Positions 1-51,079 of a stretch of DNA of 64,000 nucleotides are shown piece by piece. The translations under genes and the position numbers were made by a program. Position 1 is the first letter of the stretch. The number at the start of each line of letters is the position of its first letter. This DNA comes from Membranipora membranacea (taxonomy: Eukaryota; Bryozoa; Gymnolaemata; Cheilostomatida; Membraniporidae), in NCBI GenBank assembly GCA_914767715.1, contig OU612067.1, positions 22,852,162 through 22,916,161 of the forward strand, given 5' to 3'. The notes under the pieces are model-generated. The model did no database searches and was not told where the DNA came from. It was given only the letters and a program-made list of their open reading frames with translations.

Positions 1-158
1 ATCTCATGATGAGAGCAGAGACACATAATATTTAAAACCCACAACAACGCAAATAACTAGCCATTGAGATGTGATCTGCTCTTAGTCATCGACCATCTGA
101 TCTTTTTTGTTGTGCCCCTCAATCAGCAACAAATCAATCTGCATTCTCTTTCCTGTAG

Positions 159-21847: not shown

Positions 21848-22105
21848 TCAAATATACGCTAAAAAGGACCAACCTGGTATCGGTTCGATTGTTGTGACCA
21901 CTTGGTTTAGTACATCAGCAAACATGTCCGGTTGATTCTGAATTTGAATACCAGGTAGAAGATACAGTTTTCTCAGATTAGTAAAAGTACAGACAGTTTT
22001 AGGCATCTGAGTGACATAAGAGGCAGCAGTTGGAGCAGCGGCAGCACCTCGAGTCAAGTTCTGATCTGTTCTCTCTACTCCGTATCTCGTCACTGATTCT
22101 CTAAC
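21848..22105 (-). CDS. Caspase gene exon 17: end of p10 subunit and stop
   Basis: Residues 1372-1456. The exon starts in phase 0 after a tgaag acceptor and ends TGA at 21850-21848. It contains an Ala-rich loop (RGAAAAPTAASY) followed by TQMPKTVCTFTNLRKLYLLPG. This matches the usual caspase C-terminus, in which a QxPxxxxTLRKKLYLxPG-like strand closes the p10 subunit. About 30 residues extend beyond it, more than in typical caspases, and end GWSFLAYI. Confidence 0.88.
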   Translation of the reverse strand, partial: VRESVTRYGVERTDQNLTRGAAAAPTAASYVTQMPKTVCTFTNLRKLYLLPGIQIQNQPDMFADVLNQVVTTIEPIPGWSFLAYI

Positions 22106-25100
22106 CTTCAAATCATGAAATAAACGTTTTTTTTATTAACAATTGAAACTGATACCTCATATTTCGATGTGTTATTGTAGATCATGCTATGCTACTCAGT
22201 GACTGTTACCGATAATTGTGATACTTCAGAAGAAACTATTGCTAGAAGCTAAGTTTTGGTTTGCTATCACAAAATGCTTTTCTTTTTAGTTTATATTCTA
22301 CTGAATATTGAGTTCTACAAGACCTGGTAAAATAAGAAAGACCTATTCAATGCATATTTTTAACATCGAGAAACCCAAATGTTGTGGTGTGCGTGTCACT
22401 GCAACTTACAATCTCAGCCATAGTTGTGACATCATACTTGTGTCCAAGTTTGCAGAATGTTGCAACCACAGCTCTGATAAAAGGTGATCCAGTCCTGGGG
22501 TTCCTTGGTGAAGCGAATGCTGTCAAACAAAGTACAACGGTTATGAGTGACATTTAAGCTGTAAACTTTTGTTCTAATTAATCTTTGTCATCATAACTTA
22601 GAGAAGTAACTTACTATTACTTGAACTGTCCAGAGATATAAGTTTAGTGAAGACTGATAGAAAAAACCGCTGTAAGGAAATTATAATTCAATGTTTGGCT
22701 ATTAATTACTCACAATCAAAGCTCGACTGCATGATGATCATATCAGAAATGGAAATATCTTGAGTATCAGTGTCTATTTCATCATCAGGTGACCTTGGCA
22801 CTGTCATTGTTTGTCTGCTGCTATCTACATGACCTGCTGTAACAGCTGCTGGACTTGTATCCAAATCATCTCTTAGCATCTCCCTGTTACCTGAAGTAGA
22901 AAACAAAGAAAAACGACCACATTATGACTTAATATTTGTGTGCCAATGTATCTACACCCGCCTATTTCTACCATCTAAAACAATTTGTGATTGAAAGGTT
23001 TATCATTGTATGCTGCATATTTTGTTCTAAATGTTATCGATCAGACACAACAAGGAGGAAAGTAGCCATTGAATTGTCTTCTGGATTGTTTTGACATGAA
23101 TTGATAACTTCACAAATTCATAACGGCGTGAACTGTATGACAAGAATCGGGTGTAATTTTGGGGGAGGGGGGTTCTTTTGACGATTGACTCGGCTCTCAG
23201 CACCCTCATAAGTAGATATTCTTGTTATCATATTCTCTATTCTGAACTGAACTCACCTCCAGCACATGCTTGTACTATGACAATCTTTGGTCTGCCTCTC
23301 ATAACAGGGAAGTTCTTTGGAGAAAGTAGGTCATAGATATCCGTAAGCCTAATGAAGACTCTGTCACACCCTATGATACAGCCCTCATCTCCGTGACTAG
23401 TCAGTACCAGTACAAACATTCCCATCTGTCTGTGGACTGATTGTCCCGCAGAATCTGTTCTCTGTGTTTCTCTGTGAATAGTGTCTATCATCTCCTAAGG
23501 AACAAGAAAGCAATATACCCAAAATCAATACATTGAAGTGTACATTGCAGGTTACTTAATCAACCTGGTTTCTGGCTAGTTGTGTAAGTTTTAGAAACAA
23601 CTAGAAAAGTATCATTTGGGTATCATCATAGAATGATAAGTAAACTGTAGATAGTGGTTGATATTGCTTACCTTAGCAGTATAGTTGGTATGATCACCTA
23701 CAGTAAAAAGCCCAAGTTTCTCAAGAACACACTTCATATTCTGATAATCATGCTCTGAGCCCCTTCTTGACTGGTTGTAGTGGTTGGACACAATCAGCGC
23801 TCTACCTCGACTTTCTGTCATCTGGTACTTGGCCTAAAATAAGACAAAAAAACAGAAAAATTGATCAAGTTATATCAATGTGTATCGCAATCTCATGATA
23901 ACGGTCATCCATTCAATAACAGGCTGAAATACTGGACAAGAGCAGGTTGAGATAGTGAATGAGATACTGATTCCATTGTTACTATTACTCTTCAACTAAA
24001 TCAGCCAAGTTTTAGGTATTGTAACAGTTTCAATAGTGCAGAAAATACAAATCTGATTAAAATACACCAGGATTATTTTGTTTGGCTTTGGTCAAGGATT
24101 TCTTTGTTAGTAGAACTAAGCATTGGTGTCATTATTCTGATATATAAAAACCTGATTTTCAAAACTTTGATCTGCTATTTGCGGGTCTATATTTATATCA
24201 GGCTGTCCTTGCTTCATCAGCTCCAATATATCTTCTACTTCTGTCATATGTATTCCTGCATCTTCTGCCTCTTGTTCATTGACTGTGAGAGCAAATATAA
24301 GTAGGCTATATGTAGTGTTATAAATGAGAACATGTTATTGAAGCTTTATATGGTTAGTGAGAAACAAGGGATATTTATATTATCTAGGAACCACAGTGAA
24401 CTGCATAATGAGTGAATATTTGTTAGACTATCAACTGAATGTTTTTGTGGAGGTTCACAAGTTATCTGAGTAAATAACAGTGCCAATAAGTATCAATATA
24501 AAGAATAAACATGGTCTCATCACTTTTAATGCACAATCCATCTGGTTGACATTGAGACTTACTTGGGTCAACTGGCATCTGCTCCCTCTTGATGAAGTCT
24601 TCCAGCACTCTCACTCCTTCAGTGTTGATTTCCAGACCTAATGAATTACAAAAATATTGCTATTGATTGTTGTATTAAATATATTTACCTAGTAGTGAAC
24701 TAAATTTTGATTTTTAAATGCATGCAAAATTAGGAGCTATGAATCATAGGGTCACAGCATACATATTATACATATTTGACTCACATGGGAATCTGAGAGG
24801 TTTGGGAACATTTGATCCTGACACATTATCACACCGGCACGTCTCATCTCCAGTGAAGACTGTGAGATGTGAATTGAGGGGCTTGTAGCTTTCATGTGAT
24901 TTATAGCTCTTTCTGAACCATTCAGGATTGACCTGAGTCGTTGGTGACATTTGTTCTGTCAGCAGACAATGAGAGCAGTAGAAGACATGCTCATAACAAA
25001 CTCCTTTCCACACAGATTCCAGTTCAGATGTGAGCTGCTTCATCGTACCCAACAGGCTCTTCCATGCATCGCAGATTCTCTTAGCTGGTGTAAGAACAAT

Positions 25101-28100
25101 CAGTGACACTTGTTTCTTGTTCTGGTCGTGTAACAGATATCTCATTATTCCGTTATCTTCTTGTACTTGAGCACCGTTGCTACCAGCTTCTACTGTATTG
25201 ACTGGATTGATGTGTATGTCTAGAAACCCTGCGGTAATCAGATGAAAGATGTACCCGGGTACCGACATACCGTTGAGATACAGATCGATTTTCAGTGGAA
25301 ATAGCTTTGGGCTAGGTTTAGCTGCAGATATGATTTGACTGCTGAAATAAGGAATGATAAACTTCATGCTGTCATCTTCTCTCCCTATGGGCCCGCAAAT
25401 CAGGTGGAATGTTTTCAGAAGTGTTACGCCCACCTCAGCTGGCAGCTCTGATTCAGATTTGAGCAGATTGTGAAGCAGGGCAGCATCGATGACCCCTGTT
25501 GCTTTGAAATCCTCCACCATTTTCACATACTCTCGTTTGTCAACAACTCTGTCATAGAATCGGTAGGGCACAAAGACCTCAATACGATCATCCCATGTTT
25601 GGTCAACCCGATGATCATACAGTGTCCCTATGAGAGAGACAAGAACATCAGGTCGATGGAATATATATTCACACAGCTTGTCATCGTTTTGATACCACAT
25701 TATTCTTCCTATTTCATGAATGTATTGTAAGATATATCGTTTTCTGCTCTTACGGAAACCTTTCACAATGTCAGTAACCTTAATAAAAGGCTTGTCTGTC
25801 TGCACGGTAAGATCCATGAGTGTCTTATACCAGCTACCTGGTATCTCCGTCATAAGATGAGAACCGGCTTCGCTAAGGGTCTTCTTAAGAGAATAAAAAA
25901 CAGTTTCAGTCGAAGTAGCAGATAACTCCAATACAATATTGATGAGGGGCTTAGATTTGTCACTGAAGCTTGTCATAGAAAAGAAAGGGCTTGTAGGGGA
26001 ACCAGCACTCTCTTCTGCCTCTATTATCTGGAGGCGCAGTTTTTCGGCTGTTGCGATAAGCTGCTGCTTTCTTATATTAAGCTGCTCTTCAGTAAGCTTA
26101 TCAGTATGCGTGAGAACTAGCACTGGTTGGCCAAGGTTAGGACGTGCTAAGTAGACGTGAGATATCCATCTCATACAAAGATCTTGTGTTGCAGCATCCT
26201 CTCCTTTATCAGTCACCAAACTGTCAAACTCTGCTATATCTATGACAAGAAGCGGGACAGACTGAGTTTTAAATGTTAATTGGTAGGCAAAGTTATACAC
26301 TTTATGCCCACCAAAGTCAATAAAAACCAGTCTAGATTTGTCATCCACTTTCGCTTCACAGATATTGAATACTCGAGTTGCTTCATCCAGCTTGGAGTCT
26401 GTAGCAGATCGTTTTGTCAGCACCCGCTGATTTTCCTGAACACTTCTAACCAGGCTTGTTTTTCCCGCTCCACTTTTGCCGAACACAGTTACTGGGATAA
26501 GTTTTACATTGCTTTCTCGCTTGAACTTTAGATCATCTAGATACTTCTGTAGAGCTTTTCTACCCTGTTTAATGACGGCGTAGGGAGGAGATAAAAGTGC
26601 CTTGCAGCTTTTACAGTTGAAGTTTGTCAGTGTTTTGTTATTGAGGAGGCTCTCAGGTATTGAGGTGAGTTCTGTGTTGTGGCTTACATCCAGATACCAT
26701 AACTGTTTGAGGTTCCCAAGGCTGTAAAAAATAACCATCTTTGTTAGTTGTGGTATGAATTTTGCTTGTTTTGAGAATATTAATGATAAATTGTTAACTA
26801 TTGTTGATTTAGCAATGGAAGTCTGTCTGTGTTTTATGGTTTAGAGGTGAGTTGTTTGTTGGATCTTATATCCAGTGATTGTTAACTGTTCGAGCTTCCC
26901 AAGGCTGCCATAATCACCATATTTATAAGCTATGCTTTGTCTTTCGCTTGATCGGAGAATATTAATTATTATTGTTGACCTGTAAGCCTATAAACCTTTG
27001 GTCTAGAAGAATTGCAATAATGAAGAAAATCTTGGACAGATAATTGGCTGGATTGAATTTTGAATGCTTGGTTATATTCTTTGTGTATTGGGTCAGGATC
27101 TCTTCAACGATTATTTGAGGAAATAACATTTATTATGTTTATTATGTCTATTTCTTTCACTAATAGGACAAATATCGGTTTAAGCATTTATTTTGATGAT
27201 GAAAGTGTTTTGATTATCAATGCTTATGATCAATTTTCGGGGGATTGCTATTTGATATTTGTTGTCAGGCTGCTATTTTGTTAAATTTCAGATCATTGAA
27301 AATCCTTAATTCTCGGCCACTTGCATCTAATGAGAAAACAAAATTGCATCCAGACAAAACAAATGACTGATAAAACGAATGTTTTATCTGATAACATAAG
27401 TCTGTCTATATTTTTGTAGTTAACCGTGGAAGGGATAATGCGTGCTTTTTGAGCTCTTTCTCCCTAACCCATCTTTTGTTGATAACCTAAAACCTAAAAA
27501 AATTTAGTTGCCGAATCACAATGGAGCAGCCATTCTCTATGATCCCATTCGATTTTCCACTTTGAATGAAGTTGACCACTCTCAATCCAAATGGATTCCT
27601 ACTATACTCACGATGATAAAACTTGCCTGCCCGTCTGGTCGGGTCTCCCGGACTTTTAATTTTTTTTCATGTGTGCTATTGCTAAAGATAAAATAATATA
27701 TTTAGACAATGAGAAATAGAGTGGGAGAAAGGCACTTTTGAAGAATAAACACTCGTTAAAGATTTGTGTCGGTGGCATGGCCATAGTCTCGTATGCTATC
27801 CATTCATTCGCGGCTTCCATACGACAAAGATCTGAAAGCAAATGAAGTAACACAAACTAATACAAACAAATATTGCATCGGTGTTATTTCCATAATTCTA
27901 TAACTCCTAAGATCAATGTGAAATTGAATCCTCAAAACATATTGAGAGCAGCTTTAAAAGGTCTTTTTCTCCAGCCCCCAGCACCCTCGGATGTTAACCT
28001 CTCCAACCTCTCCAACCCTCATATTACATCCACGAAGAGTAACAAACCTAGAGATTGCCCACTAAAATGCTTTGCTGAAATATAACCTTGAACCTCATGC

Positions 28101-31100: not shown

Positions 31101-34100
31101 TTTAAAAAAGGAGATAAAACTAGAGGTAATAGTTACAGACCGATTTTAATTTTAAATTCGACATCGAAAGTTTTAGAAAAGCTCCTTTCAATGCAAATCA
31201 GAGAGTATCTGGAGTGCAGAGATTTACTCACTAATTACCAATTTGGCTTACAACTGACGCAAATAATATTATAATGGAACAACCTTACAACAATTTTAAT
31301 GATAGAGGCATCACCCAGGGTGCGCTTTTAGATTTTTCAAATGCTTTTGATGCAATAAATCAGGGCATTCTCATCAGTAAACTGAATTTTTTTTTTGATT
31401 TTCCTCTCCCTCTTGTCGACTTTTAGAAAATTATCTTTTAAACAGAAAACAATTTGTCTTGGTTAACGATGTTGAGTCAGGGTTATTGCAAGTCAAGATT
31501 GGATTTCCCCAGGGTTCGGTTCTCAGGCCACTTTTATTTTTGATTTATATTAACGACCTTTTAAATGCAGCACCTGATCTAAATTATATACTTTTTGCTG
31601 ATGATACAAACATTTTTAATACTTAACCTGAAGTTATGAAAAGAACTTTACCTTTGATTAATGAATGGTGTATCACCAACCGTCTTGTTATTAACTATGA
31701 GAAAACCTTTCAAGTCCTTTTTAAAGCCCCAAACAAATTTTTAACCCTGAGGAATTCAAGCTCGAATTCGGGAACTCTATTTTAAAAGAAAAAGGAACCA
31801 ACAAATTTTTAGGACTTGAGTTAGACTCCAACCCAACTTTCCATGAGCAATTTAAAAGCCTTAAAAAGAAATTAAATTTAACTCTGATGATGATGTGAGC
31901 ACTACGTCCAGCTATGGAGCTATGGAGCTAAACCGACTATCAGTGAAAGTGATTGCCAGAAGCTGCTGAATCTATTGCAATTTTCAAACTTAAATTCCGA
32001 TTGAATCCAGTTGAGTTATCAACATTTAACCCTAGCTGGGAACGATAAATCAATGATAGCTTTGAGTAAAAATCACTGTGTCTACACCCTCCAGTGACGT
32101 CGCGTCACCATAATTAAGTGCCTCACTTCAGCTATATACAGTGTCATGTCTAGGTTTATTATTAAGTCTATGGTCTGACCATACTGATTCACAATACTAC
32201 CAATACGTTCTCATGTCTAAATTAAAATATGTTGGGAGTTATCCTATCATATAAATATAGAAGATAACTGCCTTTTGCGATATGTATACGTATGTATAAG
32301 GTTAATTTGACAAACAAAGATTGCCTCACTGAGAGAACCCTTGTAATTTGATTGTTGGTATAATATACATAAAATACAGATTCAGTTCAGAACAAGATCC
32401 TCTGTTAGCTATCTGCACCTGTCAGGTATAATTCTTTGTCAAGAGGTGTTCGATATTCTGCTATGAGACTTTGTAGCAGAAACTGACAAATATTGAGTCG
32501 TTTTGTTAATAGTGTTTGATGTGTCTCGTAGAAAGTATATTAACAAGAAAATATTAATCTATTTAGTTGTTCTTTAAGTTGTGACCAGCAGCTCAAATCA
32601 CCGGAGTGATTATCCATGGTTTTTGTCTGATGAGAACACATTCTGACATTTAAATCCTAGAATAGAACTAGGACTGTAACAAAACTATTAAGCGATTAAT
32701 TGACACCCTCTTATCAACATTTATTAACCAGACCTGAATCCTAAGCTACTGTAAAGTTGCCAGCAACAGCCCATAATAATAATCATGATAATATATTTTG
32801 TTACAAATAAACAGAGAGAAGACGATACGGATACAGTATATGATGAGTGATGGTAAGATAGACGATATGACTCACCTCTCAGGTATACTTCTTAAGTCAC
32901 ACCCAGACACATATATCTTCTTAAGTGACCTCATCCCTCCTAATCCTTCAGGTAATGTCTGTAGGTTCGCATTAGAGTGTAAGTATAACTCCTCCAGTTC
33001 GGTCAGTGAGCAGATGCTGAGGGAACAAAAATTTCATTCAATAATTATATATAGTTTTCCGACTTAGATTTTATTACTGCCACTGGCTGAGGAGAAAATT
33101 AAGAACAATGGTAATCACAGGATTTCTAATGTTTGGTAAAATAATTCTATAGCAATTTATATCCAATTTTGCGTACCAGTACCACTAACAAAAAGAAGGG
33201 TGAGACTTTAGACAAGCTTAATTACCAAGTTAGAGGGCCTGTTACAAATGCGAGGCATCTTCTCTAGCAAAAGAGACAAGCAGCAAAAGAGACGAGAGGT
33301 AGTAGCACCTTAAAGGGGCACTTATTAGCCTGCAGGCTCTCAGTACAAATAAACCTAACTAAACCAACAATACACCAGTGGCCAGTAAGCAATACAATCC
33401 TGGTGTTTTAAAAAATAATACTACCAACACATTCTAAATCATAAAATTAAATATGTTGGGAGTTATCCTGCCTTATAATTATAGAAGATAACTGCCTTTT
33501 GCCATGTGTATCAAAGGCTAATTTGACAATTAAAAAGGTTCTGAGAGAACCCATGTATTTCTATTATTAATGAAAGAAATATAAAGTACAGATTCAGTTC
33601 AGTACATGATACCCTGTTATCTATCTGCACCTGGCAGGTACATATCCAGCTTTGTCAACAGGTATTAGAAATTCAGCCATGAGACTTTGTAGTGAAAACT
33701 GACAAATATTGAGTTGTTTTGTTTACAATGTATGATATGTTTTGTAGAATATAATTACCTATTGGCTGCAATTAGGATATTCATGGTAAAAAAATATGGA
33801 TTTGCTCGGTTTGTTTTCACCCTGTGTGGTATGCTCTATGATATAATTTCACCCAGCACGGTCTCTGGATACAGCAGTTACAGTTAGTCTCAGTCAACCA
33901 TGATTTTGTTTGAGTATCTTAAAATTACTTATTGATAACATTTTTGTGACAGTCACTGAGATATTGTTAAAAGTAAAGTAGTAGTAAAATATATGCAGAT
34001 GGTACTATGTTATGATTAACATTAACAACACAAAAAACAAAGAGGTCTCATTATTTTATCTGTGTAAATTACACCAGCTGGCTCTTTTATCAGTGATAGA

Positions 34101-40100: not shown

Positions 40101-43100
40101 TTTTAGTTTATATTAACGACCTTTTAAATGCAGCATCTGATCTAAATTATATACTTTTTGCTGATCATGCAAACATTTTTACTAATGAACTTGAAGTTAT
40201 GAAAAGAAATTTACCTTTGATTAATGAATGGTGTATCACCAATCGTCTTGTTATTAACTATGAGAAAACCTTTCAAGTTCTTTTTAAAGCCCCAAACAAA
40301 ATTTTTAACCCTGAAGAAATCAAGCTCGAATTCGGGAACTCTATTTTAGAACTCATTTTTGAAGCACTGTCCCAAAATTTGCTGCAAATTTTGTATAGTG
40401 CTATATCATGTAATATATGATACCCAAGCGCAAGGTTTTTATACCAAAATATTTTTACAAAAATCATTTTGATTACGGTAAAAAATGATAAAATGTTCAC
40501 CTCTATTGTGAAATATCATATAAAACAACGAATCATAAGCTTTACACCGATTGTATATCACATGCCAATGTACATCTAACTGCTGGGTGTCTGTTTTGAC
40601 GGATACGTATTGAACCAGTGAAAAGTATATTAGCACCAAGATATTAATCGATTTCCTTGTCCTCATAGTTGTGACCAGCATCTCAAATCACCGGAGTGAT
40701 TCCCCCGGTTTTTTTTTCTAATGAGGACAGATTTATGATTTTCTGACATTAAAATCCAAGTATTGAACTAGTACTGTAACAAAACCCTCAATAATTTAAT
40801 AAACAGACCTGAATCCTAAGATACAGTAAAGTTGCCAGCAACCCCCCATAATAATGATAAATCATGACAATACAATTTGTTACAAATAAACACAGAGAGG
40901 AAACAATACAGTTACAGTATATGATGAGTGATGGTGAGATAGAGGATATGACTCACCTCCCTGGTAACCTTCTCAGGTCACAGAGAGACACTTTTATATT
41001 CTTAAGTGACCTCATCCCTCCTAGTCCTTCAGGTAATGTCTGAAGGTTCTTATTATTGTATAAGTATAACTCCTCCAGTTCGGTCAGTGAGCAGATGCTG
41101 AGGGAACAAAAATTTAATTCAATAATTATATATAGTTTTCCGACTTAGATTTTATTACTGCCACTGGCTGAGAAGAAAATTAACAACAATAATAATCACG
41201 GGATTTCTAGTGTTTGGTAAGATAATTTAAAGTTAAATCATGTCCAATTTTGCATACAAAGTACCACTAACAAAAAGTAGGTTGAAACTTTGAACAACCT
41301 TGATAAGCAAGCTAGGGGGCATTTTACAAGTGTGAAACATCTTCTCTAACAAAAGAGACAAGAAGCAAAAGAGACGAGAGGCAGTGGCATGTTAAAGGGG
41401 CCCTTATCAGCCTGCAGGCTCTCAGTATCAATAAACCTAACTAAAACTGCAATACGACAGTGGTCAGTAAGCATAACAAACAGTTGATAGAGAATTTCTT
41501 ATCCTAGTGATTTAAAAATAAGGATTTTTTTATCAGGATGTAAAATTAACTAAGTTTGACCATGCATATTCAGAATACTACCGATACATTCTCATTCCTA
41601 AAATTAAATATGTTGGGAGTTATCCTGTCATATAAATATAGAAGATAACTACCTTTTGCCATGTGTATCAAAGGTGAACTTGACACCAAAATATTGCTTT
41701 TCTGAGAGAACCCTTGTATATGTATCATTAGTATAAGATGTATAAAGTGCAGATTCAGTTCAGTACATGAAACCCTGATATCTATCTGCACCTGACAGGT
41801 ACATAATCCTTGTCAACAGGTGTTAGATATTCTGCTATAGTACATTGTAGCGGAAACTGACAAATATTGAGTGGTTTTGTTCATAATGTTATAATGTGTT
41901 TTGTTAAATGTAATCACTAATTGGCTGCAGTTAAGTTTTTCTTGGTCCAAGATTCTGGAGTGTCTCAGTGTTTTTTGTGATGAAATTTTCACCCAGTGTG
42001 GTATGGTCTATGATATAACTTCAGCTAGCATGGTCTCTGAATACAGCAGTTACAGTTAGTCTCAGTCAACCATGGAAAATTGTCAGTTACATATGAGACA
42101 GGGACATTGACTTCGGATAACTTTCAGTTTAGTCAGACAGAGATGACATTTGGATGTGATGATTCTGAAACCGCTTTATATGGCAATTCCCAAATAAGAT
42201 AGGATGTGATATTTCAGAATTGATGGTCATAAAAATCTTTTCGATGCACTGTCACATGTGCTACTAACATTTTTGCATAACTTATTTACTAAACTTTGTT
42301 GTACATATTCATTGTCAACCGGTGTTAGATAACCTGCTATAAGACTTTGTAGCGGAAACTGACAAATATTGAGTTGTTTTGTTTATAATGTTATGGTCCA
42401 AAACTCTAGAGTTGCTCGGTTTTTTTAAAAACCATGATCTCAAATCAAGTTTGTTGAAACTGAATATCGGAAATATTTTTGTAACAGTCACCTACATAAT
42501 TGTTAGGGGGTAAAACATATCCCACCGTCATGTAATGATTAATGATCACCGAAGGGGTCTCATCACATATTCTATGATATCTACACCTGCTATTTCGTTA
42601 TCAGTCACAGATGAGACCTCATGTATTAGTACACAAATTTGACAGGAATTACTGATAACTATCAGTGTGGTATGGTAGTGATGACTTTTGGATCTCATAA
42701 TTCTGGCTACAGCTTCATGTGGTGAGGCCCAAATGAGATGAGAGAGGATAAATGGTATTGGTGATGGTATGTTTTGAAAGATTGTAACGTGGGAAGAATA
42801 CAAAACACTAAGATATCTTCATCCTTATAATTGTGACCAGCACATTAGGGCTTATTAGACAATCCTACTTAACAATCCCTCTAAGGCTCAGGCAGCCCTT
42901 GAGGAGCTGTGATGCTTATCAATTTCCCACTTGTGTCGACCACTGTTTTTTGATGAGGCAGTCGCGGCGAAACTGTAATAGGGTCAAACAAAAACATACC
43001 AAACAACACATGTTTACCAACTGTTCCAAACAGACCAGGCTAGAACGAACAGTTTCCCTGTACCAAACCAGAAACAAAGTTTTGCACAGGTAATTATGTC

Positions 43101-46100
43101 AGAAAATGTGATCTTTTGATGACAAGTCATTGCCCTTAATCTAAGACCGTTCCTGAATCCGAACTGTTTTATTCATTTTTTTAATAACGAAAACCTCTAT
43201 GGATGATCAAGTGGTAAACTCACACGGGTAGGGGTAGGGGTTTTGCAGGAATAATTTTTACCTGCAAAACCTAGCTGACCAAATTTGAGCCTGAAAAACC
43301 GTCTTCCCCAAAACTTTGCCAAGGTCTTAACAATTTATCGCAATATGTCACAAAAGCTACATTGTGCGGATCTCTGAGATTGCATTCTATAGAGTGATGT
43401 TTTAAAGTAGATATTAAAAAATGTATCTCATTAAACAGTCATATTAATATAAATTTTAGAGAAGATCTCTTTCTCTTTACCTCCTGCATGATAAATAACC
43501 GATAAGCTAGACATAATCAAATATGAAAACCTGAAAAGAGGTCACCCAGGGACAGGACCCTTATGTATCATTCTAGTATCACAATGTGATTGATAAAACA
43601 GGCTCACCAAAAGAGACAATCTCACAGGGGGGGCCGGGGGGCCGTCGGACAGGGGGCAAAGTCTGGGGGGCTCAGACTATGTATGATGTGGTGACACGAT
43701 TGTGGATATGACTCACCTTTCTGGCAATCTACTCAGATCACACCCTCCCAAATCTAACCTCTTCAATGTTCTCAGCTCGCAGAGTCTATCAGGTAGGCTG
43801 TGTAGAGAGTTATTTGATAAATCTAATGACTCCAGTTCTGTCAGCGAGAGGATACTGCAGATAGATATCAAATTTGACAATTAATTAATAATGTTCAGGA
43901 TAATTTTACAAATTTACCTACAAGGCGCATTAATTACATCATATATAACCAGTGCACAATATATATACTAAATATATTTCTATAAATTGGGTGGTGGAAA
44001 ATTTATAGAAATACCCGTGCATGGTGAATTATCACAATAGCTCAAGGTCGGTTAGCGTAATGGCCACGTATTTAATTTCTTGCTTCTAATCTTCCAGGTT
44101 CACTTAGCTCATGTCTCAGATCTCTAATCGCGAATATAACTACTATGTAGTAACCAGGTGTGTCATCCATTTTGAGCCCAAATAGCCTGTTATTGCCAAA
44201 ACTTTACTTGTACACATATTTTGTTTTTCACCATTAGACTTTTTCAGGGATGCTTTCTGGTTCCGGAACCCCGATAGTTAGGTTACATCAGGAAATCTGC
44301 TCAATCTTAAAGGGATGATAACTCCAGCAATATATAATTTATTTTGAATGACTGAATTTATATCACCTGACTTTGGCTTTCCAACTTGATAACTGAATAA
44401 CACATTAAACATTTTTTTGTTCGAAACAAACTGTAATAGGGTCAAACAAAAACATACCAAACAACACATGTTTACCAACTGTTCCAAACTGACCAGGCTA
44501 GAATGAACAGCTTCCCTGTACCAAACCAGAAACAAAGTTTTGCACAGGTAATTATGCCAGAAAATGTAATCTTTTGATCACAAGTCATTGCCCTTAATCT
44601 AAGACCGTTCCTGAATCCGAACTGTTTTATTCATTGTTTAATAACGCAAACCTCTATGGATGAACAAGTGGTAAAGTCACACGGGTAGGGGTAGGGGTTT
44701 TGCAGGTATAATTTTTACCTGCAAAACCTAGCTGACCAAATTTGAGCCTGAAAAACCGTCCTCCCCAAATCTTTGCCAAGGTCTTAACAATTTATCGCAA
44801 TATGTCACAAAAGCTACATTATGCGGATCTCTGAGATTGCATTCTATATTATAGTGATCTTTTAAAGTAGATATTAAAAAATGTATCCCATTAAACAGTC
44901 ATATTAATATAAATTTTAGAGAAGATCTCTTTCTCTTTACCTCCTGCATGATAAATAACCGATAAGTTAGACATAATCAAATATGAAAACCTGAAATGAG
45001 GTCACCCAGGGACAGGACCCTTATGTATCATTCTAGTATCACAATGTGATTGATAAAACAGGCTCACCAAAAGAGACAATCTCACAGGGGGGGCCGGGGG
45101 GGCCGTCGGACAGGGGGCAAAGTCTGGGGGGCTCAGACTATGTATGATGTGGTGACACGATTGTGGATATGACTCACCTTTCTGGCAATCTACTCAGATC
45201 ACACCCTCCCAAATCTAACGTCTTCAATGTTCTCAGCTCGCAGAGTCTATCAGGTAGGCTGGATAGAAGGTTAAATGATAAATTTAATGACTCCAGTTCT
45301 GTCAGAGAGAGGATACTGCAGATAAATATTAAATTTGACAATTAATTAATAATGTTCAGGATAATTTTGCAAATTTACCTACAAGGCGCATTAATTACAT
45401 CATATATAACCAGTGCACAATATATATACTAAATATATTTCTATAAATTGGGTGGTGGAAAATGTATAGAAATGTCCGCGCATGGTGAATTATCACAATA
45501 GCTCATGGTCGGTTAGCGTAATGGCCGCGTATTTAATTTCTTGCTTCTAATCTTCCCGATTCACTTAACTCATGTCTCAGATCTCTAATCGCATATATAA
45601 CTATTATGTAGTAACCAGGTGTGTCATCCATTTTGAGCCCAAATAGCCTGTTATTGCCAAAACTTTACTTGTACACATATTTTGTTTTTCACCATTAGAC
45701 TTTTTCAGGGATGCGTTCTGGTTCCGGAACCCCGATAGTTAGGTTACATCAGGAAATCTGCTCAAGCTTAAAGGGATGATAACTCCAGCGATATATAATT
45801 TATTTTGAATGACTGAATTTATATCACCTGACTTTGGATTTCCAACTTGATAACTGAATAACACATTAAACATTTTTTTGTTCGAAACAAACTGTAATAG
45901 GGTCAAACAAAAACATACCAAACAACACATGTTTACCAACTGTTCCAAACAGACCAGGCTAGAATGAACAGCTTCCCTGTACCAATCCAGAAACAAAGTT
46001 TTGCACAGGTAATTATGCCAGAAAATGTAATCTTTTGATCACAAGTCATTGCCCTTAATCTAAGACCGTTCCTGAATCCGAGCTGTTTTATTCATTGTTT

Positions 46101-49100
46101 AATAACGCAAACCTCTATGGATGAACAAGTGGTAAAGTCACACGGGTAGGGGTAGGGGTTTTGCAGGTATAATTTTTACCTGCAAAACCTAGCTGACCAA
46201 ATTTGAGCCTGAAAAACCGTCCTCCCCAAATCTTTGCCAAGGTCTTAACAATTTATCGCAATATGTCACAAAAGCTACATTGTGCGGATCTCTGAGATTG
46301 CATTCTATATTATAGTGATCTTTTAAAGTAGATATTAAAAAATGTATCCCATTAAACAGTCATATTAATATAAATTTTAGAGAAGATCTCTTTCTCTTTA
46401 CCTCCTGCATGATAAATAACCGATAAGCTAGACATAATGAAATATGAAAACCTGAAAAGAGGTCACCCAGGGACAGGACACTTATGTATCATTCTAGTAT
46501 CACAATGTGATTGATAAAACAGGCTCACCAAAAGAGACAATCTCACAGGGACAGTGTATGATGTGGTGATACGATTGTGGATATGACTCACCTTTCTGGC
46601 AATGTACTCAGATGACACCAACTCAAATCTAACGTCTTCAATGTTCTCAGCTCGCAGAGTCTATCAGCTAGGCTGGATAGAGGGTTAAATGATAAATTTA
46701 ATGACTCCAGTTCTGTCAGAGAGAGGATACTGCAGATAAATATTAAATTTGACAATTAATTAATAATGTTCATGATAATTTTACAAATTTACATTCAAGG
46801 CGCATTAATTACATCATATATAACCGGTGCACAATAATACTAAATATATTTCTATAAATTGGGTGGTGGAAAATGTATAGAAATGCCCGCGCATGGTAAA
46901 TTATCACAATAGCTCAAGGACGGTTAGCGTAATGGCCACGTATTTAATTTCTTGCTTCTAATCTTCCAGATTCACTTAACTCATGTCTCAGATCTCTAAT
47001 CGCAAATATAACTACTATGTAGTAACCAGGTGTCATCTATTTTGAGCCCAAATAGCCTGTTATTGCCAAACTTTACTTGTACACATATTTTGTTTTTCAC
47101 CATTAGACTTTTTCAGGGATGCTTTCTGGTTCCAGAACCCCGATAGTTAGGTTACATCAGGAAATCTGCTCAATCTTAAAGGGATGATAACTCCATCGAT
47201 ATATACTTTATTTTGAATGACTGAATTTATATCACCTGACTTTGGCTTTCCAACTTAATAACTGAATAACACATTAAACATTTTTTTGTTCGAAACAAAC
47301 TGTAATAGGGTCAAACAAAAACATACCAAACAACACATGTTTACCAACTGTTCCAAACAGACCAGGCTAGAATGAACAGCTTCCCTGTACCAAACCAGAA
47401 ACAAAGTTTTGCACAGGTAATTATGTCAAATAATGTAATCTCTTGATGACAGGTCATTGCCCTTAATCTAAGACCGCTCCTGTATCTGAACCATTTTATT
47501 CATTGTTTAATAACACAAACCTCCATGGATGAACAAGTGGTAAACTCACATGGGTAGGGGTAGGGGTTTTGCAGGTATAATTTTAACCTGCAAGACCTAG
47601 CTGACCAAACTTAAGCCTGAAAAACCGTGTTCCCCAAAACTTTGCCAAGGTCTTGACAATTTATCGCAATATGTCACAAAAGCTACATTGTGCGGATCTC
47701 TGAGATTGCATTCTATATAGTGATGTTTTAAGGTAGATACTAAAATATTGTATCTCATTAAACAGTCATATTAATAAAAATTTTAGAGAAAATCTCTTTC
47801 TCTTTAACTCCTACATGATAAATAACCGTTAAGCTAGACATAATCAAATATGAAAACCTGAAAAGAGGTCACCCATGGACAGGACACTTATGTATCATTC
47901 TAGTATCACAATGTGTTTGATAAAACAGGCTCACCAAAAGAGACAATCTCACAGGGACAGTGTATGATGTGGTGATACGATTGTGGATATGACTCACCTT
48001 TCTGGCAATCTACTCAGATCACACCAACTCAAATCTAAGCTCTTCAATGTTCTCAGCTCGCAGAGTCTATCAGGTAGGCTGTGTAGAGAGTTACGTGATA
48101 AATCTAATGACTCCAGTCCTGTCAGTGAGAGGATACTGCAGATAAATATTAAATTAGACAATTAATTGATAATGTTCATGATAACTTTACAAATTTACCT
48201 ACAAGGCGCATTAATTACATCATATATAACCGGTGCACAATATATATACTATATATATTTCTATAAATTGGGTGGTGGAAAATGTATAGAAATGCCCGCG
48301 CATGGTGAATGATCACAATAGCTCAAGGTCGGTTAGCATAATGGCCACGTATTTAATTTCTTGCTTCTAATCTTCCAGATTCACTTAACTCATGTCTCAG
48401 ATCTCTAATCGCAAATACAACTATTATGTAGTAACCAGGTGTGTCATCTATTTTGAGCCCAAATAGCCTGTTATTGCCAAAACTTTACTTGTACACATAT
48501 TTTGTTTTTCACCATTAGACTTTTTCAGGGATGCTTTCTGGTTCCAGAACCCCGATAGTTAGGTTACATCAGGAAATCTGCTCAAGCTTAAAGGAATGAT
48601 AACTCCAGCAATATATAAATTATTTTGAATGACTGAATTTATATCACCTGACTTTGGCTTTCCAAATTAATAACTGAATAACGTACATTAAACATTTTTT
48701 TGATTCAAAACAAACTGTAATAGGGTCAAACAAAAACATACCAAACAACACATGTTTACCAACTGTTCCAAACAGACCAGGCTAGAATGAACAGCTTCCC
48801 TGTACCAAACCAGAAACAAAGTTTTGCACAGGTAATTATGTCAGAAAATGTAATCTTTTGATGACAAGTCATTGCCCTTAATCTAAGACCGTTCCTGAAT
48901 CCGAACTGTTTTATTCATTGTTTAATAACGCAAACCTCTATGGATGAACAAGTGGTAAAGTCACACGGGTAGGGGTAGGGGTTTTACAGGTATTATTTTC
49001 ACCTGCAAAACCTAGCTGACCAAATTTGAGCCTGAAAAACGGCTTTCTCCAAAGATTTGCCAAGGTCTTAACAATTTATCGCACTATGTCACAAAAGCTA

Positions 49101-51079
49101 CATTGTGCGGATCTCTGAGATTGCATTCTATATAGTGATGTTTTAAAGTAGATATTAAAAAATCTATGTCATTAAAAGGTCATATTAATATAAATTTTAG
49201 AGAAGATCTCTTTCTCTTTACCTCCCGCATGATAAATAACCGATAAGCTAGACATAATCAAATATGAAAACCTGAAAAGAGGTCACCCAGGGACAGGACA
49301 CTGATGTATCATTCTAGTATCACAATGTGATTGATAAAACAGGCTCACCAAAAGAGACAATCTCACAGGGACAGTGTATGATGTGGTGATACGATTGTGG
49401 ATATGACTCACCTTTCTGGCAATCTACTCAGACAACACCAACTCAAATCTAACCTCTTCAATGTTCTCAGCTCGCAGAGTCTATCAGGTAGGCTGTGTAG
49501 AGAGTTATTTGATAAATCTAATGACTCCAGTTCTGTCAGCGAGAGGATACTGCAGATAATGGTGCGGTGCATAATATATATACTAAATATATTTATATAA
49601 ATTGGGTGGTGGAGAATGTATAGAAATGCCCGCGCATGGTAAATTATCACAATAGCTCAAGGTCGGTTAGCGTAATGGCCGCGTATTTAATTCCTTGCTT
49701 CTTATCTTCCAGATTCACTTAACTCATGTCTCAGATCTCTAATCGCAAATATAACTACTATGTAGTAACCAGGTGTGTCATCTATCTTGAGCCCAAATAG
49801 CCTTTTATTGCCAAAACTTTACTTGTACACATAATTTGTTTTTCACCATTAGACTTTTTCAGGGACGCTTACTGGTTCCAGAACCCCGATAGTTAGGTTA
49901 CATCAGGAAATCTGCTCAAGCTTAAAGGGATGATAACTCCAGCGATATATAATTTATTTTGAATGACTGAATTTATATCACCTGTGTTTGGCTTTCCAAC
50001 TTAATAACTGAATAACACGTTAAACATTCTTTTGTTCGAAACAAATTTGCTAATGTCATTGCACCTCAAATATATGGTACCACTAACCGTTCTAACTGAT
50101 CTGAGTGTGGTGTCTCTCCGAGTTTGAGTTGTTTCAGATGCGGAGCTATCTCATGTAGATTAGGAGGGATATTACCGTCTATCCTCATTTGTGTAATTTG
50201 TATTCTTTGTGATGCCTCTGTCAGCTCTTGTAATGTCATTGACTTTACTGACACATCCGAAAGTGGGAGGTCAACTTGAGGTTGCCCAGCATGTCTGTAC
50301 CCGACATGATAACCTGAAAGGTGAGTAATAACAGAAAACATTTGAGCTCTATATTAATGTTTTTTTTTAATTTTCTGTGCTCACATTCGAACTCCAATAA
50401 GGATGATCTTGATTTATAGAACATGAATTAGAGGCATAAACACATGTATTCAACAGTGAAGTGATCAATATGAGACCCAATACACTTTTTAAGTTCTAAA
50501 ACAGTTCTGTAACAACAAGATAAGCGAGAAGACAATCAATAATCACAGAACATTAATATGCATACTATATTTACTTTTACTTTTTACTTTCATTTTCATT
50601 GGTATGCTGTAGGCCTAGTTGACCTTACAAAAACAGACACTCAAACACCATATATATTATGTTTTCTGTGCCTTGAATGGATTTCATGAACTGGAGAAGG
50701 AACAACAATAATAATTATTCCAGGAGTCAGTTGTTGATTAAGAAAACAAATTGCACGCTTTACAAGTTTGTAATTTGACTTGACTATGTTTAAAATAAAC
50801 TAGCCTGTATTCAGTATGACGCCAAGGGTGAGAATGTTGGTAAAAGAGAATCAAGTGTGTATGCAGATGGATCTTGGGTAGTGCTCACTTCATTCACTAT
50901 CATGTACTCCGCTCTTTTATTTACATCAACACAGCCGCAAAATTTAGAAAACTGGTTGGTATCAACAGAGGATTTATAGTTTTATGAGTCTCACCTTGAC
51001 CTTCTTCCTCAGTGTTTCTCCTCAGCTCACTCTTCCTAGCACTGTCTGCCCCACTAGGATCCTCATTCTGCGATGTCAT
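21848..51079 (-). CDS. LRR-ROC-COR-caspase fusion protein (ROCO caspase), 17 exons, 1456 aa
   Basis: Seventeen exons joined by GT..AG introns with agreeing phases give 4,371 nt, exactly 1,456 codons plus stop. Order: N-terminus 1-28; LRR cap 29-103; seven LRR-pair exons 104-427; a last LRR and ROC GTPase about 428-720; COR about 720-1000; linker to 1142; caspase 1143-1456. ROC shows a P-loop GKSGAGKT (509-516), switch DFGGH (563-567) and THTDK (632-636). The caspase has catalytic His1230 (TSHGDEG) and Cys1273 (QACAGG). In known families, ROCO proteins are GTP-regulated dimerising scaffolds, and caspases are activated by induced proximity, so GTP-controlled clustering of the protease is a reasonable inference. 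ATG 51079-51077 was chosen as the first in a phase-consistent exon; more 5' exons are possible. I do not know of a described protein with this order. Confidence 0.88.
22410..22519 (-). CDS. Caspase gene exon 16: p10 core with substrate-pocket Arg
   Basis: Residues 1335-1371 read SFASPRNPRTGSPFIRAVV and then HKYDVTTMAEI. This is the p10 signature SWRNxxxGSWFIQxL. Both tryptophans are replaced by proline, but the Arg that helps bind the substrate aspartate (SPRN, about residue 1340) is kept. It is spliced phase 1 in, phase 0 out. Confidence 0.88.
22714..22890 (-). CDS. Caspase gene exon 15: p20/p10 linker
   Basis: Residues 1276-1334. It encodes an acidic, flexible segment (PRSPDDEIDTDTQDISISDM) ending MIIMQSSFD, which aligns with the start of p10. 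Several aspartates offer possible self-cleavage sites between the large and small subunits. It starts and ends in phase 1. Confidence 0.83.
23257..23494 (-). CDS. Caspase gene exon 14: catalytic His and Cys
   Basis: Residues 1197-1275. MGMFVLVLTSHGDEGCIIG carries the catalytic His (about 1230) and KIVIVQACAGG the catalytic Cys (about 1273), 43 residues apart, a usual spacing. The pentapeptide reads QACAG where most caspases have QAC[RQG]G. The Gln that binds substrate Asp is kept. It ends in phase 1 within the second Gly. Confidence 0.92.
23672..23833 (-). CDS. Caspase gene exon 13: start of the p20 subunit
   Basis: Residues 1143-1196. The exon reads AKYQMTESRGRALIVSNHYN, then SRRGSEHDYQNMKCVLEKLG. 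This is the caspase opening strand, followed by the R.G...D...M/L motif whose Arg (about 1166) lines the Asp pocket. It is a symmetric phase 0-0 exon of exactly 54 codons. Confidence 0.92.
24152..24637 (-). CDS. Caspase gene exons 11 and 12: linker between COR and caspase
   Basis: Exon 24563-24637 (75 nt) encodes LEINTEGVRVLEDFIKREQM. Exon 24152-24282 (131 nt) encodes an acidic, probably helical piece, EQEAEDAGIHMTEVEDILEL. Phases 1-1 and 1-0 fit the neighbours. About 69 residues in all. I do not recognise a CARD, DED or Death domain; it may be a spacer or a very divergent prodomain. Confidence 0.75.
24785..26721 (-). CDS. Caspase gene exon 10: last LRR, ROC GTPase and COR
   Basis: A single 1,937-nt open exon covers residues 428-1073. 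It begins with an LRR, LGNLKQLWYLDVSHNTELTS, and then a short helix (KALQKYLDDLKFKRESNVKL) leads into ROC. Nucleotide-binding motifs are GKSGAGKT, DFGGHKVYNF and VLTHTDKL. The COR part starts near PGSWYKTLMDL and contains HEIGRIMWYQNDDKLCEYIF, the family's LH..G.I.WF motif. A Cys/His-rich end (CYEHVFYCSHCLL) precedes the donor CCCAT/gtgagt. No kinase domain follows, unlike LRRK proteins. Confidence 0.93.
26722..28559. other. Intron part without recognised features
   Basis: Apart from the duplicate noted at 26844-26960, this AT-rich intron sequence upstream (in gene orientation) of the ROC exon shows no LRR exon, no long frame and no repeat that I recognise. Confidence 0.5.
26844..26960 (-). 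pseudogene. Degenerate tandem duplicate of the 5' edge of the ROC exon
   Basis: Sequence about 180 bp upstream (in gene orientation) of the ROC-COR exon resembles its first 60 nt and acceptor region. Both contain a TTCCCAAGGCTG junction with downstream LRR-like codons. The copy has lost the reading frame and the acceptor tract. Confidence 0.6.
28651..29527 (+). pseudogene. LINE copy A ORF1 (coiled coil and nucleic-acid-binding), broken
   Basis: It begins at an ATG near 28651, shifts frame near 28742, and continues as a 89-aa coiled coil rich in Lys/Glu heptads (IERKQKETEDKQTEMEKCL). It stops near 29011. A further frame from 29327 has FINEYLNPAEQKLFYLAR and YTWTSHNQVFMRKK, typical of the C-terminal nucleic-acid-binding part of invertebrate LINE ORF1 proteins. 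Confidence 0.7.
29700..30500 (+). pseudogene. LINE copy A endonuclease
   Basis: An open frame from 29853 (215 aa) contains GGGIVIYVSQMFEA, LIVGDVNIDLNP, RIGETKISILDHI and DISDHKPVCASF. These are the later motifs of the exonuclease/endonuclease/phosphatase fold, including SDHxP. The N-terminal ETW motif sits upstream near 29800 in another frame, so the gene is frameshifted. Confidence 0.75.
30510..31980 (+). pseudogene. LINE copy A reverse transcriptase
   Basis: Fragments in several frames encode the RT fingers and palm: FPQGSVLRPLLFLIYINDLL and LNYILFADDTN (catalytic FADD intact), followed by a stop near 31624. The thumb begins with INEWCITNRLVINYEKTF. Several stops and indels make it inactive. 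Confidence 0.8.
32150..32640. repeat. Old LRR-exon unit, fragment 1
   Basis: It shares with 33.4, 34.5 and 41.6 kb the sequence around GTTGGGAGTTATCCT, the block TTCAGTTCAGAACAAGAT/CTATCTGCACCTG, and the end ATCACCGGAGTGATTATCC. No LRR exon is retained here. Confidence 0.7.
32760..34330. repeat. Old LRR-exon unit, copy 2 (carries an LRR exon)
   Basis: This is the flanking intron unit of the LRR exon at 32876-33016. Shared blocks in order are the exon, AAAAGAGACAAGCAGCAAAAG, GCCTGCAGGCTCTCAGTA, GTTGGGAGTTATCCTG, CTATCTGCACCTGGCAGG and the ATAATTTCACCCAGCACGGT stretch. Confidence 0.75.
32876..33016 (-). CDS. Caspase gene exon 9: LRR pair (141 nt)
   Basis: A phase 2-2 exon of 47 codons reads SLTELEELYLHSNANLQTLP, then LGGMRSLKKIYVSGCDLRSI. 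This is two leucine-rich repeats. Acceptor ccctcag and donor gtgagt are intact. It is one codon longer than the 138-nt exons of the young array. Confidence 0.9.
34440..34805. repeat. Old LRR-exon unit, fragment 3, cut by LINE copy B
   Basis: It is nearly identical to 32.30-32.64 kb over TTTGTCAAGAGGTGTTCGATATTC to ACCGGAGTGATTATCCA. It ends abruptly where LINE copy B begins at about 34806. Confidence 0.75.
34806..37040 (+). mobile_element. LINE copy B, 5'-truncated, inactive
   Basis: It begins inside the endonuclease (TTGATTCAAAGCCAATG-like junction), passes a disrupted SDHKPV motif and continues through the RT, with LQGSVLRPLLFLIYINDLLN and a FADD box preceded by an extra residue. It then carries YYSFCYPHLIYGLEFWGHAS, a C-terminal RT motif lost in copy A. 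A GC-richer stretch from about 36740 may be the 3' untranslated region. Many stops and frameshifts. Confidence 0.75.
36950..38680. repeat. Old LRR-exon unit, copy without an LRR exon
   Basis: It shares ACCAGTGGTCAGTAAACAATA, the TTATCTGCACCTAATAGG block, TCACTAATTGGCTGCA and the GTCTCTGGATACAGCAGTTAC-like stretch with the other units. The part that should hold the LRR exon is replaced by the end of LINE copy B. Confidence 0.65.
38687..40349 (+). mobile_element. LINE copy C, 5'-truncated, inactive
   Basis: It starts within the endonuclease (GGCTCTTCGGCGGCTTTTC) and runs through most of the RT (177-aa frame at 39887-40420 with VLDFSKAFDTI, VPQGSVLRPLLFLVYINDL). The catalytic box reads FADH instead of FADD, so the enzyme would be dead even without the stops and deletions elsewhere. 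Confidence 0.8.
40350..42300. repeat. Old LRR-exon unit, copy 5 (carries an LRR exon)
   Basis: Flanking intron unit of the LRR exon at 40957-41097. It repeats the same ordered blocks as 32.76-34.33 kb. A shorter fragment of the same unit follows at 42300-42840 (TATAAGACTTTGTAGCGGAAA). Confidence 0.7.
40957..41097 (-). CDS. Caspase gene exon 8: LRR pair (141 nt)
   Basis: A phase 2-2 exon of 47 codons reads SLTELEELYLYNNKNLQTLP, then LGGMRSLKNIKVSLCDLRRL. It is closely related to the exon at 32876-33016, which differs mainly in the second repeat. Both splice sites are intact. Confidence 0.9.
43717..43854 (-). CDS. Caspase gene exon 7: LRR pair, array unit 1 (138 nt)
   Basis: It reads SLTELESLDLSNNSLHSLPD then LRTLKRLDLGGCDLSRLPER. 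It is phase 2-2 with acceptor ctgcag and donor gtgagt. The second repeat has GGCD where units 3-5 have SWC. Confidence 0.93.
45178..45315 (-). CDS. Caspase gene exon 6: LRR pair, array unit 2 (138 nt)
   Basis: It reads SLTELESLNLSFNLLSSLPD then LRTLKTLDLGGCDLSRLPER. The first repeat resembles unit 3 and the second resembles unit 1, suggesting exchange between units. Confidence 0.93.
46592..46729 (-). CDS. Caspase gene exon 5: LRR pair, array unit 3 (138 nt)
   Basis: It reads SLTELESLNLSFNPLSSLAD then LRTLKTLDLSWCHLSTLPER. A proline and LAD in place of LPD in the first repeat make this the most divergent member. The splice sites are intact. Confidence 0.93.
47998..48135 (-). CDS. Caspase gene exon 4: LRR pair, array unit 4 (138 nt)
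   Basis: It reads SLTGLESLDLSRNSLHSLPD then LRTLKSLDLSWCDLSRLPER. It is phase 2-2 and open. Confidence 0.93.
49412..49549 (-). CDS. Caspase gene exon 3: LRR pair, array unit 5 (138 nt)
   Basis: It reads SLTELESLDLSNNSLHSLPD then LRTLKRLDLSWCCLSRLPER. It is the first LRR-pair exon of the protein and joins exon 2 in phase 2 (CG plus T gives Arg). The intron sequence next to its acceptor is about 70 bp shorter than in the other units. Confidence 0.93.
50088..50313 (-). CDS. Caspase gene exon 2: LRR N-terminal cap
   Basis: Residues 29-103 include VDLPLSDVSVKSMTLQELTE and PNLHEIAPHLKQLKLGETP. This is a helical region and a first degenerate LRR before the repeat exons. It is phase 1 in, phase 2 out, with acceptor acctttcag and donor gttagt. 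Confidence 0.82.
50314..50994. other. Intron 1 of the caspase gene
   Basis: AT-rich sequence between exons 1 and 2. I see no coding frame, repeat or RNA gene in it. Confidence 0.6.
50995..51079 (-). CDS. Caspase gene exon 1: start codon and charged N-terminus
   Basis: It reads MTSQNEDPSGADSARKSELR then RNTEEEGQ and ends in phase 1 before gtgag. There is no signal peptide or membrane segment, so the product should be cytosolic. The frame stays open for several codons upstream of the ATG and a possible acceptor (atcgcag) lies just before it, so the ATG exon might be a second exon. Confidence 0.65.

Follow-up and report, generated by a model that had tools for sequence, protein, structure and literature searches.

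A predicted LRR-ROC-COR-caspase gene and its family in the cheilostome bryozoan Membranipora membranacea

Initiator caspases act by induced proximity and use CARD, DED or other death-fold adaptors, NLR inflammasomes use NACHT, and animal death and inflammatory receptors usually reach a caspase via an adaptor and a filament or wheel. The protein MFHAS1, in which ROC-COR is preceded by LRRs, is described among animals only from deuterostomes in the account given by PMC4104024. The bacterial LRR-AP-GTPase-COR conflict systems described in section 15 of PMC8195603 have a caspase among at least 24 kinds of C-terminal effectors. An animal ROCO-caspase protein was not recognised among the papers listed by searches of the open-licence PubMed Central literature, a body outside which most subscription journals lie.

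In this study, a stretch of 64,000 nucleotides (the window) from chromosome 3 of the cheilostome bryozoan Membranipora membranacea was analyzed; unless stated otherwise, coordinates are window positions. The LRR-ROC-COR-caspase architecture predicted there is, as far as searched, new for animals, and occurs on an unusual genomic scale. The initial annotation had proposed a new type of death or immune receptor. Only animal novelty is claimed here because bacterial LRR-GTPase-COR-caspase proteins are already in print (PMC8195603, in the part on these systems), and the gene is not a single oddity but one of a very large family.

Gene model and domain composition

Rebuilding the gene from the window gave a frame of 1,456 amino acids (4,371 nt) on the minus strand, assembled from 17 predicted exons between 51079 and 21848, which is identical to the phase-consistent frame of the initial annotation. 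All 16 introns are GT-AG, the phases agree and the sole stop is the terminal one. The features are listed below with the evidence for each, the profile being that of the bryozoan Watersipora subatra.

50995..51079, minus strand: exon 1, start codon region (MTSQNED...), putative start; open frame, donor gtgaga
50088..50313, minus strand: exon 2, N-terminal domain ("YRHAGQPQVD"); phase-consistent
49412..49549, minus strand: exon 3, two LRRs, phase 2-2; W. subatra profile match, phases, LRR-unit comparison
47998..48135, minus strand: exon 4, two LRRs, tandem duplicate; W. subatra profile match, phases, LRR-unit comparison
46592..46729, minus strand: exon 5, two LRRs, tandem duplicate; W. subatra profile match, phases, LRR-unit comparison
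45178..45315, minus strand: exon 6, two LRRs, tandem duplicate; W. subatra profile match, phases, LRR-unit comparison
43717..43854, minus strand: exon 7, two LRRs, tandem duplicate; W. subatra profile match, phases, LRR-unit comparison
40957..41097, minus strand: exon 8, two LRRs in a 141-nt exon of the second type; W. subatra profile match, phases
32876..33016, minus strand: exon 9, two LRRs in a 141-nt exon of the second type; W. subatra profile match, phases
24785..26721, minus strand: exon 10, last LRRs, ROC GTPase and COR; Pfam Roc 1.5e-5, W. subatra profile 1.1e-177
24773..24776, minus strand: place where seven cluster copies with a different caspase cease to be similar in DNA (module-exchange point, intron 10); blastn, 7 of 7
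24563..24637, minus strand: exon 11, linker; phases, profile/shuffle test
24152..24282, minus strand: exon 12, linker, weak donor; splice sites identical in copies L010, L011 and L018
23672..23833, minus strand: exon 13, caspase p20 part 1 (RRGSEHD); Pfam C14, W. subatra profile match
23257..23494, minus strand: exon 14, caspase p20 part 2, catalytic His (SHG) and Cys (QACAG); Pfam, profile, solved relatives, alignment
22714..22890, minus strand: exon 15, Asp-rich linker between p20 and p10, then the first part of p10; phases, alignment
22410..22519, minus strand: exon 16, p10 (FASPRNPRTGSPFI); W. subatra profile match, alignment
21848..22105, minus strand: exon 17, p10 end and stop; W. subatra profile match, phases

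The sequence "YRHAGQPQVD" of exon 2 resembles, by eye, "YRHSGQPQID" of W. subatra protein P0019. Exon 12 has a poor donor (gttttt) and exon 17 an unusual acceptor (ttgaag); the splice sites of exons 10-17 are common to copies L011 and L018, and those of exons 10-16 are kept in L010, whose examined 10-kb stretch (chromosome 3: 22986264-22996263) yielded no exon 17. The similarity of L010 to the window gene stops about 70 bases before exon 17, which points to an exon displaced or lost. For exon 11, 6 of 500 shuffles reached its score when tested on a profile of the corresponding exon from four other M. membranacea loci picked by eye. Compared with the W. subatra linker, this exon passes in L031, L030 and L009 (0, 1 and 4 of 200 shuffles as good, respectively) but is no better than chance in the window (87 of 200) and fails in L034 (50 of 200), and it was dropped as a proof of homology with W. 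subatra.

Several further elements were noticed in the window. The start region of exon 10 has a degenerate duplicate (about 74-78%) at 26838-26979 with its own acceptor-like site, which is a dead exon start. A series of plus-strand ORFs at 4381-19684 carries CUB-like sequence ("...NYPNNYDHDIGCAWEI...") and is, judged by its motifs, presumably a spliced CUB-array gene lying tail to tail with the ROCO-caspase gene. Broken reverse-transcriptase-like ORFs on the plus strand at 28.6-31.7, 34.8-36.9 and 38.6-40.4 kb look, by eye, like related LINE-type elements inside introns of that gene. Searches of the window yielded no Rfam match at gathering level and nothing at score 200 with Tandem Repeats Finder.

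The InterPro-type check that had been proposed for the joined model was run with Pfam on its C-terminal 1,028 amino acids, where Peptidase_C14 was clear (1.2e-29, above the cut-off), Roc stood just below threshold (1.5e-5; 25.6 bits against a curated 27) and no COR model reached its threshold. The COR assignment therefore rests on relatives, namely weak COR-A or COR-B matches, all below the cut-off, in P0023, P0024, P0003, P0010 and P0032, and the fold of W. subatra P0014, whose model matches the C. tepidum Roc-COR structures 3dpu and 6hlu and places COR directly behind ROC. The ROC motifs named in the initial annotation, namely the P-loop GKSGAGKT, the G3 motif DFGGH and the G4 motif THTDK, are present in the rebuilt model, as are the SHG histidine, the QACAG cysteine (QACxG), p20 and p10 expected of a C14A caspase. 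The Arg residues of caspase p20 and p10 bind the substrate Asp, and in the window they lie in RRGSEHD and SPRN, respectively. The closest solved structures to the window caspase are CED-3 (1e-18) and caspase-2. An Asp-rich linker between p20 and p10 is a candidate processing region.

The window protein and all 10 W. subatra members with a caspase retain the catalytic His and Cys. The p10 Arg is likewise retained by the window protein and by 7 of 9 W. subatra members, P0019 and P0026 having Lys and P0023 no p10. The Trp of the p10 motif SWR is replaced in all ten members with p10 (the window and nine others), the variants being SPR, ATR, ATK, AIR, SIR, STR and SER, and the canonical QACRG reads QACAG or QACSG in the window and the W. 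subatra members. Given the lost Trp, the altered QACRG and the Lys of P0019 and P0026, the specificity or activity of these caspases may differ. Among nine close tandem pairs, dN/dS was 0.22-0.39 for ROC-COR and 0.08-0.42 for the caspase, with the caspase value below that of ROC-COR in eight, and both parts thus appear, by these sequence comparisons, to be under purifying selection.

The COR-caspase linker of the window protein is about 70 amino acids long, and no CARD, DED or Death domain was found there by Pfam, nor NACHT anywhere in the 1,028 amino acids, where the ROC GTPase stands instead. Fold evidence comes from an AlphaFold2 model of one relative, W. subatra P0014, rather than of the window protein (alignment of 32 proteins; mean pLDDT 75.8, pTM 0.64), in which LRRs, ROC and COR extend to about residue 790, the linker has mostly pLDDT <50 up to 900 and the caspase begins at 903. 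Other W. subatra members have longer linkers than this model covers. The best Foldseek matches of this model were LRRK1, the C. tepidum LRR-Roc-COR (6hlu), LRRK2 and 3dpu, followed by caspases-3, -8 and -9. A hidden death fold between COR and caspase is thus unsupported, both by Pfam in the window protein and by the predicted disorder of the P0014 linker. Because no death fold was recognised in that linker, the earlier idea that the GTPase module replaces an adaptor fits the data.

Two features of the W. subatra proteins should also be noted. An acidic motif like "ESDLSDVEEEGYCDE" is conserved in the COR-caspase linker of P0014 and P0019-P0026, is not evident in the window, and is a possible cleavage or regulatory site. 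The N-termini of P0019 (MGCSLSRR), P0020 (MGAKSSKD), P0027 (MGNGQSRK) and P0034 (MGSLQYK) have what we take to be a possible N-myristoylation motif, not seen in the MTSQNED of the window, which suggests possible membrane tethering of some W. subatra members.

Relatives in a second bryozoan and the family in the genome

Three protein searches, covering proteins of limited length that share exact 5-residue words (one scored the best 7,989 word-sharing candidates), returned 34 proteins: 12 of W. subatra, 21 environmental ROC-COR exon pieces and P0033. Pfam placed C14 behind ROC-COR in 10 of the 12 W. subatra relatives, these ten lying on six contigs. LRR matches were found in eight of these ten (in P0019 below the curated cut-offs), and P0023 and P0025 begin inside ROC. 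The models of P0017 and P0027 have no C14, P0017 having the family linker up to the caspase start point. None of the 21 environmental fragments, which are pieces of the ROC-COR exon, carries a caspase. The W. subatra models are predictions with NCBI names, and the assembly is described as annotated by Ensembl mainly from transcript alignments (PMC12902671). No ROCO-caspase was among the proteins returned from outside W. subatra; by these searches the absence of such proteins from other phyla is weakly tested. The protein P0033 is another unusual caspase fusion, a predicted ankyrin-RING-caspase without ROCO and with a weak Mind-bomb SH3 repeat match.

A profile built from the ten W. subatra proteins, with the window excluded, matched 12 of the 2,853 six-frame ORFs of the window at E < 1e-3. 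These 12 all lie on the minus strand, follow the profile order and correspond to exons 3-10, 13, 14, 16 and 17, and the next match had an E of 0.24; exons 1, 2, 11, 12 and 15 were unmatched by this profile. The seven LRR exons all match one stretch of it. Chance joins of ORFs are thereby ruled out. Across the window and the ten W. subatra proteins, COR and caspase distances are correlated (Mantel r 0.89, none of 5,000 permutations as high).

The two bryozoans are distant in this family: identity between the window and W. subatra is 29-32% for COR and 33-42% for the caspase. The ROC-COR tree puts the window together with 15 environmental pieces and the twelve W. subatra proteins with the other six, and the deep branches of the caspase types are not settled by the caspase tree. 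The simplest reading is that the fusion predates the divergence of the two cheilostomes, with separate fusions as the alternative; the low identity and the unsettled deep caspase branches leave one shared fusion event unproved.

Further analyses covered the M. membranacea genome (339,339,785 bases in 18 contigs; the genome note gives 339,374,674 bases in 21 scaffolds for the published assembly, PMC10290214). Two ROC-COR searches (at least 68 and at least 77 matches) together identified at least 112 distinct ROC-COR exons, one of the matches holding an internal TGA, and caspase exons were found downstream on the same strand for all 112. For 107 of them this follows from coordinates, a caspase match lying within 6 kb downstream (462-3180 bp, median 948) and none upstream or on the opposite strand among the at least 145 PF00656 and at least 150 divergent-type matches listed, and the count of 107 is identical with 66 of the 150 or all 150 divergent-type matches. 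For the remaining five, which had no listed caspase match, caspase exons of the ordinary type were read directly. At any one locus, a caspase match would fall within 6 kb on the same strand by chance with a probability of about 0.0026, with the proviso that the tandem copies among the 112 are not independent events. The nearest listed caspase is of the divergent type behind 46 and of the PF00656-listed type behind 61 of the 112 exons.

The divergent caspase has SHG or THG and, where seen, QACQ, and three joined products matched Pfam C14 at 4e-14 to 5e-11. At L029-L034 its His exon was found in six of six loci and its Cys exon in five (absent to view in L032), a caspase profile made for this analysis scoring these exons weakly (E 0.00084 to 0.31). 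The PF00656 list, against which 43 of 68 were unpaired, had suggested ROCO clusters without a protease, an idea dropped once the divergent caspase was read. Caspases without ROCO also exist, given that among 20 caspase loci read (the first 20 of 129 listed, the window's own locus left out), 14 have ROC-COR ahead within the stretch examined and six (L020, L021, L022, L024, L025 and L026) do not. Behind a listed ROC-COR lie 63 of the 145 PF00656 and 46 of the 150 divergent-type matches listed. The two genome-wide lists do not overlap, and the caspase repertoire of M. membranacea is very large. One locus, L029, has an intronless open frame of 1,942 amino acids in the stretch examined (2-5827; 2,462 amino acids in the ROC-COR search), with about 1,380 amino acids ahead of ROC-COR that start as LRRs; its relatives are intron-rich.

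These data bear on the possibility that a ROCO gene and an adjacent caspase gene were duplicated as a pair and joined by gene prediction alone. The weak exon 12 donor would favor such a pair, as would an in-frame ATG in exon 13 shortly 5' of the caspase core, because of which a separate caspase start is compatible with the sequence and the one-gene reading is weighed slightly lower, the two-gene reading slightly higher. The architecture was, moreover, read from genome sequence and gene predictions, the NCBI models of W. subatra could contain the same joining error, and P0017 and P0027 are predicted without the caspase. However, of 21 stretches compared, namely those of the window and 20 loci, 20 have an identically placed phase-1 donor at the end of the ROC-COR exon (in L033 the exon end was not found in the stretch examined), all 112 ROC-COR exons are followed by a caspase on their own strand, never upstream or opposite among the matches listed, and ten models of another species contain the same join. 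Two separate genes are therefore largely rejected and we regard them as very improbable; the claim of one LRR-ROC-COR-caspase gene rather than two neighbours holds up, and the locus is very probably a single real gene. Poly(A) RNA-seq from M. membranacea (ERR6464929) is cited in its genome note (PMC10290214).

Apparent exchange of the caspase and variation of the LRRs

The window gene is one of eleven copies at 22.79-23.62 Mb of chromosome 3, and the ROC-COR of the ten other copies is 92-100% identical to that of the window. The caspases of L010, L011 and L018 are also 97-100% identical, whereas those of the seven other copies (L009 and L012-L017) are just 38-42% identical to that of the window. 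The DNA of these seven copies is 93-96% similar across exon 10, and in each of them blastn similarity ends at 24773-24776, about 10 bases into intron 10, past the COR exon. Greater identity to the window caspase is seen in L019 and L023 (56-58%), although their ROC-COR is only 45% identical, and the caspase tree places the window with L019, L023 and L027 at 100/100, apart from L009. Because the DNA similarity stops so close to the end of the COR exon, the caspase module seems to have been exchanged at the intron behind it. Either gene conversion keeping ROC-COR alike or replacement of the caspase would give this pattern. Copy L018 (chromosome 3: 23128543-23138542), about 255 kb away, is 99.92% identical to the window gene over 10 kb; it either arose by duplication very recently or is a duplicate of assembly or haplotype origin.

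At the other end of the gene, the five LRR exons of 138 nt are arranged in tandem units, each about 1.4 kb long. In 17 of their 18 variable columns the variation alters the amino acid, and pN is greater than pS in all 10 pairs of exons, while pairwise identity among introns of the first four units is 95-98%. Fisher tests gave p 0.07 for nonsynonymous versus synonymous LRR columns, p 0.025 for nonsynonymous columns versus intron columns of four units and p 0.17 for all exon columns versus introns of four units; when all five units are included, intron variation exceeds exon variation (p 0.014), which is attributed to the much more diverged fifth unit. The pattern suggests diversification of the LRR exons, and these tests lend strong positive selection modest support.

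Proposed function and comparison with known systems

We infer that the gene is expressed, and propose that the bryozoan family probably consists of receptor-proteases with an LRR sensor, a ROC-COR switch and a proximity-activated caspase, serving in immunity or cell death or in self/non-self recognition. Going by family knowledge, the LRRs would bind a ligand or a modified self protein, and this binding would alter the nucleotide state or the dimerisation of ROC-COR. ROC-COR may serve as a GTP-controlled dimerisation switch that does the job of an adaptor; ROCO dimerisation is described in PMC4104024. Two caspase domains brought close together would then be activated as an initiator-type protease and cleaved at Asp residues between p20 and p10, the output likely being cell death or cleavage of signalling proteins after immune or self/non-self recognition. 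The family would vary its LRRs by exon duplication and swap its caspase at the intron behind the COR exon. A wider reading, to which we give somewhat less than even weight, is that bryozoans have a large repertoire of "one-chain inflammasomes", in which LRR exons multiply and diversify at one end and the protease is swapped at the other through recombination in the intron after the GTPase module, making LRR and protease separately evolving cassettes, maybe for both defence and self/non-self recognition in these colonial animals.

Two other functions were considered for the fused protein. Its caspase part might be a cFLIP-like regulator or scaffold instead of a protease, with which the replaced SWR motifs, the QACAG or QACSG sequences and the Lys of P0019 and P0026 are consistent; retention of the catalytic His and Cys in 11 of 11 members and the lower caspase dN/dS in eight of nine close pairs argue against this, and we consider it unlikely. 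Caspases also act outside cell death, and polypide degeneration is a regular event in bryozoans, so that an active fusion protease could instead have a developmental or turnover role, such as in polypide regression. The size of the family, its tandem clusters, the LRR duplication and the caspase exchange would, however, better fit many or changing ligands, and this role is a little less unlikely than the scaffold while still well behind the proposed receptor-protease.

If the receptor-protease reading is true, sensor, GTP switch and protease stand in one chain, and the coupling of signal to protease could be tested in a single protein. With proteolysis as a simple read-out, it would also reveal the effect of a ROC-COR dimer on its output domain, an issue unsettled for LRRK2. 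The swapping of caspases at a single intron would provide a natural experiment with near-identical switches and different proteases.

Among known systems, the prokaryotic LRR-AP-GTPase-COR systems share with the bryozoan gene the succession of LRR, GTPase, COR and variable C-terminal effector, and several paralogues with different effectors per genome are described for them in PMC8195603, a situation similar in kind to the bryozoan effector exchange. They differ in being bacterial, while the bryozoan gene is spliced and the nearest solved structures to its caspase are CED-3 and caspase-2; the likeness is one of described layout. Whether the same layout in bacteria and bryozoans reflects convergence or an ancient link is a question that it raises. 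Brown-algal LRR-ROCO proteins, described as candidate immune receptors in PMC11378527, likewise have phase-2 LRR exons and exon shuffling, along with diversifying selection of the kind suggested for the bryozoan LRRs, with one LRR per 72-bp exon compared with two per 138/141-nt exon in the bryozoan; the word caspase is absent from the main text of that paper.

Closer in phylogeny are the animal ROCO proteins. MFHAS1/MASL1, the name given by the source to several W. subatra members, has the same LRR-ROC-COR order without a caspase, and the bryozoan gene with its C-terminal caspase is thus not an MFHAS1. LRRK1/LRRK2 and DAPK1 share the ROC-COR fold (the best matches of the predicted structure being LRRK1, C. 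tepidum Roco and LRRK2) but have a kinase output in place of a protease. The ROCO proteins with CARD or death domains of Trichoplax, in whose genome ROCO genes are multiplied (at least 17), also link animal ROCO proteins to the death pathway, although through adaptor domains and not the protease itself (PMC4104024, in its account of this animal). The TIR-ROCO of Aplysia, another lophotrochozoan ROCO with an immune output domain, has TIR as its output, with no caspase reported in the description given by PMC9334734. The initiator caspases CED-3, caspase-2, -8 and -9 share with the bryozoan protein p20/p10, the His and Cys and an Asp-rich linker; in contrast to these and to the NLR proteins, the bryozoan protein has ROC-COR in the same chain as the caspase.
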